A stretch of DNA of 38,578 bases, taken from assembly GCA_021200895.1 (NCBI GenBank), contig JAJQFX010000294.1, forward strand, positions 1 to 38,578. The letters are read 5' to 3'. The position numbers and the translations under genes were made by a program. Below the pieces are notes generated by a model. That model was not told the DNA's origin. It made no database searches and saw only the letters and a list, made by a program, of their open reading frames with translations. This DNA comes from Clostridiales bacterium. Its GTDB lineage: Bacteria > Bacillota > Clostridia > Oscillospirales > Oscillospiraceae. Below are positions 1-30,558 of the stretch, in pieces. How positions within the stretch are numbered: position 1 is the first letter of the stretch; each line of letters opens with the position of its first letter.

Positions 1-359
1 GGCACCGCCCCCGCGGCGGAGGCTCCCAACAGCGGCAGCGCCTGTTTCAGTGTGGTCATGGCGTACAGAGCGCTGCCCACGGTGAGCCACGCCGCGAAGA
101 ACACTCCGCTGACCGCCAGTGCTACCACCAGCGCCTGCCGCCCCTCCCGGAAGGCGGCGTAGCAGCCGCCTGCGAAGCAGCCCAGCCCCGCGCCCAGGCA
201 GCAGAAAAGCTGCATCTGTCCTTCCTCTGCCCGGCCGGTGGAGATGAGCCACGCCGCCCCCAGCAGGAGGAGCGTACACACGGCGAAGGCCAGCGCCGCC
301 CCGGCCAGAATACTCGTGCATCGGTTGAACAGCGTCTCCCGGCGTTCCGTCTGCACCAA
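1..359 (-). CDS. TIGR04086-like small membrane protein, truncated at window edge
   Basis: Minus-strand translation from a TTG/GTG start near 356-359 reads VQTERRETLFNRCTSILAGAALAFAVCTLLLLGAAWLIS...; hydrophobic, open to position 1, directly downstream of yajC. Family call from recall. Confidence 0.55.
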   Translation of the reverse strand, partial: MVQTERRETLFNRCTSILAGAALAFAVCTLLLLGAAWLISTGRAEEGQMQLFCCLGAGLGCFAGGCYAAFREGRQALVVALAVSGVFFAAWLTVGSALYAMTTLKQALPLLGASAAGAV

Positions 360-3962: not shown

Positions 3963-5141
3963 TTAGTGATGGAACAGCCGCATCCCGGTGAAGCACATGG
4001 TAATGCCATGGTTGTTGCAGGCTTCGATGACGTTGTCGTCCCGGATGGAGCCGCCCGGCTCGGCGATGTACTGTACACCGGACTTGAAGGCCCGCTCCAC
4101 ATTGTCGCCAAAGGGGAAGAAGGCGTCGCTGCCGCAGGCCACGCCGGACAGCTTGGAAACCCATTCCTTCTTCTCCGCCTCGGTGAGAGGCTCCGGCTTG
4201 ACCTTGAAGCTCTCCTGCCACACGCCGTCGGCCAGGATGTCCTCATATTCGTTGGAGGTGTAAACGTCGATGGCGTTGTCCCGGTTGGGGCGGCGGATAC
4301 CGTCCACAAATTGCAGGCCCAGGACCTTCGGGTGCTGGCGCATCCACCAGTTGTTGGCCTTGTCACCGGCCAGACGGGTGCAGTGGATGCGGCTCTGCTG
4401 ACCCGCCCCTACGCCGATGGTCTGGCCGTCCTTCACATAGCAGACGGAGTTGGACTGGGTGTATTTCAGGGTGATGAGGGAGAGAATCAGGTCGGTTTTC
4501 GCGCTGTCAGGCAGGTTCTTGTTCTCGGTGACGATATTGGACAGCATTTCCTCGTCGATGGTCAGGAAGCCGTGGCCCTGCTCAAAGACCACGCCGAAAA
4601 TCTCCCGCCGCTCCTGGGCCTTGGGCACATAGTTGGGGTCGATTTGGATGACGTTGTAGTTGCCCTTTTTCTTGGTTTTCAGGATAGCCAGGGCCTCGTC
4701 GGTATAGCCGGGGGCGATGATGCCGTCGGAGACCTCGGCCTTGAGATAGGTGGCGGTGGAGGCGTCGCAGATGTCGGACAGGGCGGCCCAGTCGCCATAG
4801 GAGCAGAGCCGGTCAGCGCCCCTGGCCCGGATGTAGGCGGAGGCGATGGGGGAGACCTCAGCGCCCTCCTCCACAAAGTAGATGTGCCGGTCAATGTCCG
4901 TCAGCGGCTTCGCCACGGCGGCTCCGGCGGGGGAGACGTGCTTAAAGGAGGCGGCGGCGGGCAGACCGGTGGAGGCTTTCAGCTCGCTGACCAGCTGCCA
5001 GGAGTTGAAGGCGTCCATAAAGTTGATGTAGCCCGGACGGCCGTTCAGCACGGTGATGGGCAGGTCGCTGCCGTCCGCCATGTAGATTTTCGAGGGCTTT
5101 TGGTTGGGGTTCAAGCCGTATTTCAGTTCCAGTTCCTTCAT
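3963..5141 (-). CDS. purH: Phosphoribosylaminoimidazolecarboxamide formyltransferase, stand-alone (no MGS/IMP cyclohydrolase domain)
   Basis: 392 aa; LKYGLNPNQKPSKIY...KHVSPAGAAV...KYTQSNSVCY...QQSRIHCTRLA...SDAFFPFGDNVERA. Confidence 0.93.
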   Translation of the reverse strand: MKELELKYGLNPNQKPSKIYMADGSDLPITVLNGRPGYINFMDAFNSWQLVSELKASTGLPAAASFKHVSPAGAAVAKPLTDIDRHIYFVEEGAEVSPIASAYIRARGADRLCSYGDWAALSDICDASTATYLKAEVSDGIIAPGYTDEALAILKTKKKGNYNVIQIDPNYVPKAQERREIFGVVFEQGHGFLTIDEEMLSNIVTENKNLPDSAKTDLILSLITLKYTQSNSVCYVKDGQTIGVGAGQQSRIHCTRLAGDKANNWWMRQHPKVLGLQFVDGIRRPNRDNAIDVYTSNEYEDILADGVWQESFKVKPEPLTEAEKKEWVSKLSGVACGSDAFFPFGDNVERAFKSGVQYIAEPGGSIRDDNVIEACNNHGITMCFTGMRLFHH

Positions 5142-5158
5142 CTTTTACACACGACCTT

Positions 5159-5866
5159 TCAAACGTTCACGTTTTTGATGACATCCTGGGTCTCGCCGGT
5201 GGCCAGGTCGAGATAGCGGACGAACAGGCTGACCTTGTTGTCTCTGTTCAGGCTGCTCCACACCAGCTCGGCGAAAGCCTCCGCAGTGGGGGTGTCGATG
5301 CCCACCAGCTCCGGCTCCCCCTCAAAGGAGGGCAGGGGGTCGCCGTCCCCCATATAGGTGTGGATGAAGTGGCCGTACCCGGCCACGGGGGCGTCATACT
5401 CGTAGAAGTACCGGCAGGTCTGAGCGGGGTCGCCCTCAAAGCTCTTGAGGATGGACAGGTTATAGCTGCCGTCCGGCTTCACCACGCCGGAGATACGGGG
5501 GGTGTAGTTGGGAGCGTCCGGCTCAAAGGTGCGCTGGAGCAGGGCGTGGCGGTAGCACTGGCCCTCCTGGAAGGCGTGCCAGATGGTGTCCGTCTGGTCG
5601 CCGTTGGTGACGATGGTTTTGCCCCCGTAGACCCGGACGGGGTGATAGATGATGAGGCTGGGGTCGGTCATTTTGGAGGGGTCAAAGGCCTCGGTGCGGA
5701 TGCCGTCCTCAGTGACGGTAAAGACCCGGTTGCGGCTGTTGACGCTGCGGCCCATGATGAAGTAGGCGATGACCGCCTTCGTGTTATCGGCGCTGCGGCC
5801 CAGGACGATGCCCCGGCCGGGATAGGAATTTGTTTGCAGAAGCTCCGCCAGATTCAAAACCTTCAT
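5159..5866 (-). CDS. purO: IMP cyclohydrolase, PurO-like (archaeal-type)
   Basis: 235 aa MKVLNLAELLQTNSYPGRGIVLGRSADNTKAVIAYFIMGRSVNSRNRVF..., adjacent to the formyltransferase. Confidence 0.85.
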   Translation of the reverse strand: MKVLNLAELLQTNSYPGRGIVLGRSADNTKAVIAYFIMGRSVNSRNRVFTVTEDGIRTEAFDPSKMTDPSLIIYHPVRVYGGKTIVTNGDQTDTIWHAFQEGQCYRHALLQRTFEPDAPNYTPRISGVVKPDGSYNLSILKSFEGDPAQTCRYFYEYDAPVAGYGHFIHTYMGDGDPLPSFEGEPELVGIDTPTAEAFAELVWSSLNRDNKVSLFVRYLDLATGETQDVIKNVNV

Positions 5867-15137: not shown

Positions 15138-15166
15138 ATTATATGTGAGGGGAGGGGATTTGTCAA
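15138..15166 (-). promoter_or_regulatory. Consensus sigma-A promoter for rplJ-rplL
   Basis: TTGACA-17-TATAAT. Confidence 0.85.
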
Positions 15167-25482: not shown

Positions 25483-25748
25483 ATCCTAACCCCTGTACCA
25501 GGCTGCAAAAAACCATATCGCCCTGCTTGGTGCGTGATGGCTCCTCATTTAAACCCACATTTCTTAAACGGGACGCTTTCCTCTCGCAGTGGATTGCAGG
25601 CCTCCCGGCCCATTTTGGATGGTCTGGAAGTTGGAAGCAGTAAAAGCTGCGGGGCGGCGACCCACCTGCCCTAATCGTGCAGGTTTAAACTGGAGTCACA
25701 CGGCCAAAGCGGGGTTTCTTGCCATGCGCGCAGCGCATGGCAGGTTTT
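25483..25748 (+). ncRNA. Candidate structured ncRNA, possibly 6S (SsrS)-like
   Basis: ~270-bp non-coding interval with several hairpins, including CCTGC...GCAGG and CCCGGCCCAT...ATGGTCTGG; ggggcggcgacccacctgcc segment; ends in a strong terminator. Family call from recall only. Confidence 0.45.
25720..25748 (+). terminator. Rho-independent terminator
   Basis: TGCCATGCGC-gca-GCGCATGGCA-ggTTTTTT. Confidence 0.9.
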
Positions 25749-27525: not shown

Positions 27526-27568
27526 AAATCTCCCTCTCCACCCATACTGGGTGGGGAGGGATTTCTTT
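27526..27568 (+). terminator. Terminator hairpin between the foldase and TauE genes
   Basis: AAAATCTCCCTCTCCACCC-atact-GGGTGGGGAGGGATTT-cttt. Confidence 0.65.
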
Positions 27569-27929
27569 GTCACGCAAAACGGTCAACTGGAAGTGCGGGG
27601 TCAGCGGGGCGCTGGCCGGATTCTCCAACGGGTTCTTCGGCGCGGGGGGCGGCATGGTGCTGGTGCCCCTGCTGCTGGGGTGGGTCAGGCTGGAGGAGAA
27701 GAAGGCGTTTGCCACCTCTGTGGCGGTGATTCTGCCCATCTGCGCCGTGTCCTGCGCCGTGTACTGGTGGAAGGGGCTGCTGGATTTGGGCGCGGCGCTG
27801 CCCTTCCTCCTCAGCGGCGCGGTGGGCGGCTGGCTGGGGGGACGCTGGTATGGCCGGGTCAGCGGCAAGCTGCTGCGCCGGGCCTTTGCCCTGCTGACCA
27901 TTTATGGGGGGATCCGATGCCTGTTTTAA
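27567..27929 (+). CDS. TauE/SafE family, half-size unit 1
   Basis: 120 aa; GALAGFSNGFFGAGGGMVLVPLLLGW...KKAFATSVAVILP; TTG start. Confidence 0.8.
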   Translation: MSRKTVNWKCGVSGALAGFSNGFFGAGGGMVLVPLLLGWVRLEEKKAFATSVAVILPICAVSCAVYWWKGLLDLGAALPFLLSGAVGGWLGGRWYGRVSGKLLRRAFALLTIYGGIRCLF

Positions 27930-28279
27930 ATCTGCTGGCGGGGCTGGCCACCGGCGTGCTGTCCGCCTTCGGCATTGGCGGGGGGACGCTGCTGCTGCTC
28001 TACCTGACCTTTCTGGCCGGATTCTCCCAGCAGACCGCCCAGGGGGTCAATTTGCTGTACTTCCTGCCCACCGCCGGGGCCTCGCTGCCGCAGCACCTGA
28101 AGCGGGGAACCATCGACCGGAGCGCCGCCCTGACCGGGGGCCTCTGGGGCTGCGCCGCCGCCGTCGTCGGCGCGCTGCTGGCCTCGGTGATGGAGCCGGG
28201 ATTTTTGCGCCAGTGCTTTGGTGTGTATTTGATTGCCACGGGATGCGTCACCTTGTTTGGGGGGAAGAAGGTGGAGTAG
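27917..28279 (+). CDS. TauE/SafE family, half-size unit 2
   Basis: 120 aa; LAGLATGVLSAFGIGGGTLLLLYLTFLAGFSQQTAQGVNLLYFLP; ATG overlaps the stop of unit 1. Confidence 0.8.
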   Translation: MPVLNLLAGLATGVLSAFGIGGGTLLLLYLTFLAGFSQQTAQGVNLLYFLPTAGASLPQHLKRGTIDRSAALTGGLWGCAAAVVGALLASVMEPGFLRQCFGVYLIATGCVTLFGGKKVE

Positions 28280-28302
28280 AGGGAAGAGATGCGCAAACGA
28301 GC

Positions 28303-28342
28303 ATGGCTGGAACACCCGCAGATGCGCAGGCGTTCCAGCCAT
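28303..28342. terminator. Convergent hairpin between TauE unit 2 and the AT-rich gene
   Basis: ATGGCTGGAAC...GTTCCAGCCAT, 11-bp arms. Confidence 0.5.
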
Positions 28343-28372
28343 TGGTATGAAATCGTATTATATTATACAAAC

Positions 28373-29239
28373 CTAAACATTGAACCTGATATTCCAGAAG
28401 TTGCATGTTGCCAGTGCATACGGATTACCCATTCTAGCCATTTTGTGTACTTTTGCCCACAATGCATAACCTTGATCTTTCGATAGCCCCACAATGAAAT
28501 TATCAGTGATTGGGCGTGATTCATTCCAGACCGATTTATTCGTTGTCTTAAGTATAATCTGCCCTCCCAGCATCCCGATACTAAAAGGATAACCTATACT
28601 TTGATAGTATACCATCGCAAGTGTTGCAGCTAACTTTAAATCCTCAATGTCCCGCTGTGAAAGTGTATTATACAGTTCCCTGACTTCCGGCATACTATGG
28701 TTTTTCAATCTCGTCGGAAATAGATTAAACGCAAGCAACTCGCCCATATCTGACCAGCACTGAGCAGGCATTTCCAGCCTGTTATCTGCCAGAAAATCCC
28801 GCACATTCACGAGTTTGCTTCCCTGTGCCTCTGCAATATTGTACAGTCTTCTGGCCTCGCCCGTGTCTTTCGGCGTTGCGCTGCATACTCCGTGCTCGTA
28901 CATCATACCATGAATAAATGCGGCATTGGGATCCTCTCCACGGGCTTCAAGTTCCTGAAATGCCACAAGTGCATTTGGTTTTGTACTATGCTTGATGTTT
29001 TTAGGTACTTTTTTTGAAAGATACAATACCCCAAACCAGGAATCCTCAATTTTAACTTTGTAATAGTCCTGAGTTCGAAGCTCGTAAACCGGATCCATAT
29101 TCCCATCTTCTATCACACGATCCAACTTACACAACGCTCTTGCATATTTCATCAAAGACTCAGTCGGCTCACTCTGAAGGAACTCCTGTATCGTAGCGTA
29201 ATATGGTTCGTCTTGTTTCTTTCTACCAAATAATCCCAT
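28373..29239 (-). CDS. Hypothetical protein, possible Sel1/TPR-like helical repeats; AT-rich gene
   Basis: 288 aa MGLFGRKKQDEPYYATIQEFL...PNAAFIHGMMYEHGVCSATPKDTGEARRLYNIAEAQGS; SD ggaggagataacaaaATG. Confidence 0.6.
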   Translation of the reverse strand: MGLFGRKKQDEPYYATIQEFLQSEPTESLMKYARALCKLDRVIEDGNMDPVYELRTQDYYKVKIEDSWFGVLYLSKKVPKNIKHSTKPNALVAFQELEARGEDPNAAFIHGMMYEHGVCSATPKDTGEARRLYNIAEAQGSKLVNVRDFLADNRLEMPAQCWSDMGELLAFNLFPTRLKNHSMPEVRELYNTLSQRDIEDLKLAATLAMVYYQSIGYPFSIGMLGGQIILKTTNKSVWNESRPITDNFIVGLSKDQGYALWAKVHKMARMGNPYALATCNFWNIRFNV

Positions 29240-29284
29240 TTTGTTATCTCCTCCGTTTTTTATTTTTAAGGCGTAGTCGCTGTG

Positions 29285-30089
29285 TTAATAATTATCAAGC
29301 ATACTAATCCAACTCCACAGTTCAGCATTTTTAGCCGCATCCCGTGCTTCTTTTGCTGCCTTCAATGCTTCACTCTGCATCTCGGTCTGTTGCCTGAGCA
29401 TATTCATTTGCTGCCATGCCAAGTCGAGTTGCCTCTGTTGAGCCATCTGTGCATCGCGCCTTTGTTGTTCAGCCAGCATATACATTTCCTGCTGATGCTT
29501 TTCCGTGTGATAAACGTTGATAGCCTCCGACAACGTTTGCGCCCGGCCATTAAACAAATAATTCATCAGCAGTTCCGGAATATGACCCCCTCTATAATCA
29601 GGAGCAATCACCTGCATGAGCAAAAGGTCATCCCGTTGCTTGGCCAATTCCTGTCCCTTCCCATTCAGGGACATCAGTTCATTAAACGTCTCTTCACTTT
29701 TGCGATTGACTTCCTCCAGTCTTGCGTCCTCTTCTGCCTTTTTTCTTCTCATCCTCTTCCTCACGCTTTGGCGCATCATCAAGCCATCTTTGATATTCCC
29801 GTTTTCTGCGTGAAGATAAAGCCGCCAGTCCTTTCGGCGGTTCCATTTGAGGCATAGTGAACTCTTTTCTTCTTTTTTGTAATTTCAAGGATTCCATCTG
29901 ATTGGATAAACTTTGGGCTTTTTTGGGAAGTTCTTCAATTTCACGCTGAAGCCTGGTCAGTTCATAAAAATAAGCGATTAGTTCCGCTTTTGTCATTTCT
30001 CTGCCATTATATACAACAGATATTGTCTGAAATCCTACGCCAAATCCTTTCTCCTCTAACTTCTGCGCCTGTAATGTCCGATCCGGCAT
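29285..30089 (-). CDS. Hypothetical coiled-coil protein, one apparent frame break; AT-rich gene
   Basis: Frame 1 MPDRTLQAQKLEEKGFGVGFQTISVVYNGREMTKAELIAYFYELTRLQREIEELP... continues in frame 2 AEEDARLEEVNRKSEETFNELMSLNGKGQELAKQ...; break at T6 run 29739-29744; SD aaagggggatttaccagtATG. Confidence 0.6.
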
Positions 30090-30212
30090 ACTGGTAAATC
30101 CCCCTTTCCCGTATCGCATGCATCCAAAAAGTGTACATTTTGGACAGAGCCGCTTTGCATAGCACGTTCTAAAAAGCGGCAAAAATATATTCGAGAAACG
30201 GTTAATTTGCGG

Positions 30213-30241
30213 TTGACATTTGTAATAATCTACGATATAAT
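30213..30241 (+). promoter_or_regulatory. Perfect consensus sigma-A promoter with no large downstream ORF
   Basis: TTGACA-TTTGTAATAATCTACGA(17)-TATAAT. Confidence 0.75.
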
Positions 30242-30303
30242 TATTTTGTCAGTCAAAGGTAGACGATTCACAAAAATGTACACATTCCTGCAACTTTTCA
30301 CAC

Positions 30304-30558
30304 CTACTGCGCCCCGGTGCGCCCATAAACCGCCGCCCGATACCGGAAGGTAGACAGGGGCATCCCGCACTCCGCAGCCGCCGCCCGCCCGGTAATTTTA
30401 CCAGCCTTCCACCGCTGATAGACGGAGGGGAAGTTCTCCGGCATCGGCCCCAGGCGGCCAATCCCCGCCCCCACTGAGAGGGGGGAAACCGCCGTTATCC
30501 ATCGAAACGGCGGCGGGAACATCCGAAGCAAAGCAAAGTTAGCATATTTATGCCACAA
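30304..30558 (-). CDS. Small HTH protein resembling recombinase/resolvase C-terminal HTH
   Basis: MPENFPSVYQRWKAGKITGRAAAAECGMPLSTFRYRAAVYG; resembles the Hin-type HTH pattern (WKAG-IT...A...G...TFYR). True start uncertain. Confidence 0.4.
   Translation of the reverse strand: MWHKYANFALLRMFPPPFRWITAVSPLSVGAGIGRLGPMPENFPSVYQRWKAGKITGRAAAAECGMPLSTFRYRAAVYGRTGAQ

Follow-up and report, generated by a model that had tools for sequence, protein, structure and literature searches.

Invertible promoters that lie beside an invertase gene and serve exchangeable cargo have mostly been described in Bacteroidales (PMC8748976). Invertible loci are less frequent in Firmicutes than they are in that order (PMC8748976, PMC11892184), and Clostridia-type Firmicutes reportedly have lower inverton counts (PMC11892184). 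In Clostridioides difficile the switches Cdi1-Cdi7 are intergenic invertible segments of 154-230 bp that control downstream genes, and recombinases encoded at other loci may act on them (PMC5903667). Here we analysed a stretch of 38,578 nucleotides from a Clostridiales bacterium (hereafter the window), in which a sequence-only reading had pointed to an AT-rich island of two genes. Our results indicate that the island is very probably the cargo operon of a phase-variable invertible-promoter cassette. The kind of switch is already known, and the cargo pair is uncharacterised.

The locus shares with the described invertons (PMC8748976, PMC11892184) short inverted repeats, an internal promoter and accessory cargo directly downstream that is swapped between otherwise similar switches; the invertase gene that lies immediately upstream in such systems is present here as a stub. 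It differs from them in its host, which belongs to Clostridia and not to Bacteroidales, in the GTGTACA core of the repeats and in the truncation of the invertase in cis. Moreover, the invertase is of the serine type with a Resolvase domain, whereas the invertase tree in PMC8748976 was rooted with tyrosine integrases. The Cdi1-Cdi7 segments resemble the putative segment of the window in location and in the control that it would exert on downstream genes, but the recombinase tested there was RecV (PMC5903667), while the switch described here adjoins a serine invertase and has repeats of another family. The Mpi master DNA invertases (NF009949) resemble the intact homologues of our invertase, which are likewise serine recombinases of small size that end in an HTH-like tail. 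These homologues align to NF009949 over residues ~3-155 (E 6e-12 to 1e-11), but with scores of 44.7 and 45.7 bits they stay far below the cut-off of 272 and do not belong to this equivalog.

The difference in composition that first drew attention to the island was evident in both profiles calculated. In 500-base windows the GC content of the block at 28.36-30.30 kb is 0.42-0.45, and most of the contig is at 0.58-0.66. Over both profiles, GC in the island is 0.42-0.47 as compared to 0.60-0.67 around it, and GC3 of the island genes is 0.37-0.50 as compared to mostly 0.78-0.88 in the neighbour genes. The two genes lie on the minus strand and are separated by 45 nt, as had been described, and the downstream one is preceded by a good Shine-Dalgarno sequence (ribosome site ACGGAGGAGATAACAAA-ATG). 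The bounds given earlier, 28373-30300, are too narrow: the relevant feature reaches ~30459 on the right and a hairpin at 28305-28341 on the left. Integration of the island at a tRNA gene was considered and rejected, as there is no tRNA anywhere in the window.

The ORF next to the island, previously called recombinase-HTH-like, is indeed the remnant of a recombinase: of a small serine DNA invertase it retains the C-terminal ~51 codons (30304-30459, minus strand; GRLGPMPENFPSVYQRWKAGKITGRAAAAECGMPLSTFRYRAAVYGRTGAQ*), and the catalytic N-terminal part is missing. The 46-aa tail of this stub is 44-47% identical to 'recombinase family protein' genes of Enterococcus plasmids, and at the DNA level the stub is 80-93% identical to invertases of the same genus. 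Only the C-terminal stub is linked to the switch in cis, and an intact homologue is found on another contig of the same genome (G000:C154; L136 3267-3872), with 92-93% DNA identity over the stub stretch. This intact copy scores above the cut-off for the Pfam Resolvase domain (PF00239, E=3e-28), which is absent from the stub in the window, and it is accompanied by a near-identical half-site, GGTTGCAGGAATGTGTACATT. Relatives also have complete copies that carry this domain. The invertase family is widespread in Clostridia, with at least 572 confirmed stretches.

What the sequence-only reading missed is the putative invertible promoter, which would explain the neighbourhood of the island. Downstream of the stub there are two inverted repeats. 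The first (30273-30286; minus strand AATGTGTACATTTT) has the core GTGTACA at 30277-30283, which begins 20 nt after the invertase stop codon, and the second (30128-30141; minus strand AAAATGTACACTTT) has the core TGTACAC at 30131-30137. The two are complementary at 13 of 14 positions and enclose a putative invertible segment of 139 bp (30138-30276). Inside the segment lies a sigma-70 promoter, TTGACA-17-TATAAT, on the plus strand (30213-30241), which matches the consensus at 12 of 12 positions. Flanking inverted repeats and an internal promoter, two of the features of an inverton, are both found in the window. As assembled, this promoter is directed away from the two cargo genes, i.e. the switch is in the OFF orientation. 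One further exact match to TTGACA-16..18-TATAAT, and no more, occurs in the window, at 15166 on the minus strand. The pair GTGTACA...TGTACAC at a spacing of 80-250 bp occurs once in the window, and 4 of 300 shuffled sequences hold one. Taken alone the repeats are modest, with an 18-mer score of 14 against a shuffle maximum of 13; their support comes from the invertase context.

This context was examined in close relatives of the invertase, which gave 72 usable intact loci. A strict layout, with GTGTAC at most 60 nt past the invertase stop codon and GTACAC at +100 to +300, is present in 38 of the 72 (0.00 in shuffled sequences), and about half of the surveyed loci fail this strict repeat test. 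The offsets in the window are +20 and +167. More direct are two pairs of loci in which the segment itself has opposite orientations. In the orthologous cassettes L138 (G018) and L139 (G001), 138 of 140 positions are identical when the segment is aligned inverted, as compared to 72 of 157 in direct alignment, while the flanks of the inverted 140 bp are identical at 106 of 107 and 107 of 107 positions and the cargo (an Eco57I-type methylase and a helicase) is shared. The second pair, L173 and L180, shows 95/113 identity inverted versus 59/128 direct. Because of these opposite orientations there is strong comparative evidence that the switch family is an invertible promoter. As to their own content, L138 and L139 represent a phase-variable restriction-type locus with an Eco57I-type methylase and a ResIII helicase in two species of one genus.

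The first cargo gene had been described as a coiled-coil gene at about 29285-30089. No single open frame spans this stretch; we found two overlapping frames instead, an N-terminal one of 131 aa (29694-30089, minus strand; MPDRTLQ..., coiled coil, GC3 0.37) and a C-terminal one of 165 aa (29285-29782, minus strand; GC3 0.50), which part at an A6/T6 run (29739-29744). An indel of one base could have arisen as an assembly error. The frame was left unmended and the halves were searched separately. No convincing relatives of the N-terminal half were found in 391 class-level genomes, viral contigs, phages and plasmids. The C-terminal half carries a domain of a loose Clostridia family with the motif YR...L.nGRADT.KEAINLYE..lH...M. 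The first matches had E values of ~1e-3 and the motif was spotted by eye; a profile then gave members in 13 of 201 genomes at family level, one of them in the same genome on contig C293 (reciprocal match E 0.012). In many members the N-terminus holds a zinc ribbon, and there are apparent membrane segments; the conserved C-terminal domain is covered by no Pfam model. Several are lone AT-rich genes (GC 0.36 in surroundings of 0.58, 0.38 in 0.60 and 0.40 in 0.59); such single insertions with GC 0.36-0.40 are seen in L031 (7419-8123, reverse complement; G000:C293), L033 and L040. The C-terminal half is predicted to form a hairpin of long helices (pLDDT 84), and a Foldseek search with this model returned nothing. 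The PADLOC anti-phage defence families gave no convincing match to the cargo; the one match, of the helical half to Cmr5 (E=0.0084), was taken as due to chance. Together with DUF489, HflD, thiamine kinase and phage neck/portal proteins, it belongs to the low-scoring coiled-coil or helical matches that we do not believe.

The second cargo gene (28373-29239, minus strand; GC3 0.44) has an intact frame of 288 aa. Its earlier reading as possibly Sel1/TPR-like is weak: there is one Sel1 repeat, at residues 105-141 (Pfam E=0.0022), which stays below the curated cut-off. Specifically, the protein shares one stretch with the Sel1-repeat proteins (PF08238) and scores 19 bits against the gathering threshold of 30.7. 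No homologue was found at E<=0.001 in 735 genomes, viral contigs, phages, plasmids and genome_contigs; a weak match at E=0.008 lies inside an open frame of 3174 residues and is not credible. The structure prediction was poor (pLDDT 46.5) and of too low quality for a structure search. The proposal that the two genes form an undescribed two-gene system finds no support, since the Sel1-like protein is without homologues in these collections and the relatives of the C-terminal half of gene 1 have no partner that phmmer links to the Sel1-like gene of the window. The pair was not met together in the other genomes searched.

The left end of the cassette is a conserved 3' end at 28302-28363 that contains a hairpin, GGCTGGAAC-N18-GTTCCAGCC at 28305-28341, with a 17-bp stem (z=-4.9). 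It is 84% identical to positions 855-916 of L105, a 3.1-kb contig of the same genus (G021:C121), where it follows unrelated cargo. Both island ends match this contig, over 206 bp at 79% and over 62 bp at 84%, and between the shared ends L105 encodes an unrelated membrane-type protein of 189 aa. The segment of the window has 111 of 142 positions identical to its L105 equivalent in direct alignment, i.e. the orientation is the same. The two cassettes thus have conserved ends around exchanged cargo. The horizontal origin proposed earlier is in accordance with these data, as the AT-rich composition and the cassette ends common to unrelated cargo in G021 both support a horizontal or accessory origin and a link to the adjacent recombinase remnant. 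In a scan of nine genomes full matches to the hairpin were found in this genome and in G021 only. The same pattern in the viral contigs L112 and L113 was rejected, since these two assemblies overlap and the match, which falls in coding sequence, is due to chance.

Among five close relatives, homology to the right flank begins only at ~30508-30543, upstream of DUF5685, and homology to the left flank stops at ~28251-28267, the end of a TauE pair. In all five (G017, G021, G002, G1046 and G018) the two flanks are on separate contigs with other neighbours. The alignments therefore place the island at a probable rearrangement point; a join made in assembly is the less likely reading. The TauE/SafE exporter on the left (27567-28279, plus strand) is encoded by two adjoining half-size genes, and the same split occurs in relatives (L100 and L104). 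Further to the left, at 25517-25719 on the plus strand, there is a 6S RNA above the Rfam gathering score, just upstream of a PrsA-like gene.

According to the mechanism we propose, a small serine invertase gene is followed by a ~140-bp segment that is bounded by GTGTACA/TGTACAC and carries a strong promoter, and recombination at the repeats would flip the promoter, so that the cargo would be transcribed in only one of the two orientations. By coordinate arithmetic, inversion in the window would put the promoter at ~30201-30173 on the minus strand, leaving a leader of ~75 nt to the ATG at 30089. As the local invertase is a C-terminal stub, any flipping would need a copy that acts in trans, and the intact homologue on C154 may be this copy; otherwise the cassette would be locked or decaying. 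We infer that the segment could flip in this organism by such action in trans and that transcription of the cargo would be controlled in this way. Both the truncated invertase and the frame-split gene 1 are the reason to consider that the cassette may be decaying or trans-driven.

A dead relic from which nothing is expressed, with the invertase deleted, the promoter locked OFF and gene 1 frame-shifted, is a serious possibility to which we give somewhat less than even weight. The invertase stub, the frame split at the A6 run and the OFF orientation all point this way. However, the intact invertase on C154 with its near-identical half-site could work in trans, the Sel1-like frame is intact, and the frame shift is of the kind that an assembly error could produce. 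It is important to note that this rival concerns present activity and is compatible with our explanation of the nature of the locus. A simple operon of two genes that was acquired horizontally and has a fixed internal promoter, next to which the stub and the repeats would be unrelated neighbours, would account for the AT-rich composition, and there are weak promoter-like matches on the minus strand (9/12). We regard it as highly improbable, because the stub, the repeat offsets of +20 and +167 and the promoter match the layout of intact switch cassettes and because the same switch and terminal hairpin surround other cargo in G021.

The conserved ends, the exchanged cargo, the different chromosomal sites in G000 and G021 and the strong hairpin could also be features of an integron- or IS-like mobile element in its own right, in which the hairpin would be a recombination end and the serine recombinase would act as transposase. 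Among the relatives, however, the recombination seen is inversion of the ~140-bp promoter segment and not transposition, neither target duplication nor an empty site was found, full hairpin matches are confined to two of the nine genomes scanned, and a terminator accounts for the hairpin equally well. We consider such an element unlikely. The separation of the flanks in the five close relatives would be expected if the contig (C106) were chimeric, through binning or assembly, with the join at a repeat near 30460-30508. There is no invertase-sized repeat across the right junction, and to assume a real rearrangement is equally simple, so that we find a chimera rather doubtful; it would leave the switch-plus-cargo unit untouched, since the unit lies to the left of the junction. 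Our preferred explanation remains the cargo operon of an invertible-promoter cassette.

Regarding the possible role of the cargo, the first ORFs behind 48 switches were surveyed. SLH proteins were found five times, zinc ribbons four times and Sel1 proteins three times (L175, L200 and L171, the last below cut-off), along with DNA methylases, Eco57I and BrxA; the surface proteins are of SLH/LRR/VWA types, and other first cargo includes helicase/ResIII restriction genes, TadZ-like and SPFH proteins. The Sel1 rate of 3/48 looks high at face value. The cargo of the switch family in L152 and L209 consists of zinc-ribbon coiled-coil proteins and of SPFH/Band-7-like proteins that have zinc ribbons. 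In L162 the same type of switch precedes a 200-aa ORF (5056-5658, plus strand) and then a 1197-aa ORF. This is possibly a phase-variable BREX locus, although gene sizes were the only ground for placing the survey's single BrxA match here. The cargo pair of the window is most likely accessory and envelope- or defence-related, a guess that is drawn solely from the other cargo of these switches.

More broadly, we tentatively suggest that a module widespread in Clostridia, consisting of a serine invertase and the GTGTACA switch, to which a terminal hairpin is added in at least one genus, may serve as an exchangeable phase-variation socket for unrelated accessory operons, including a new defence- or envelope-related pair of a helical-hairpin coiled-coil protein and a Sel1-like protein. 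Orphan switches would be flipped in trans by the invertase of a sister cassette. This wider proposal is considerably less certain than the identity of the locus itself. For the locus, two AT-rich genes of unassigned role have become part of a testable switch. Surface proteins as well as restriction-modification and BREX genes are among the cargo of the family, and genes of unassigned function behind such switches are reasonable candidates for costly functions that are used selectively, such as surface display or phage defence.
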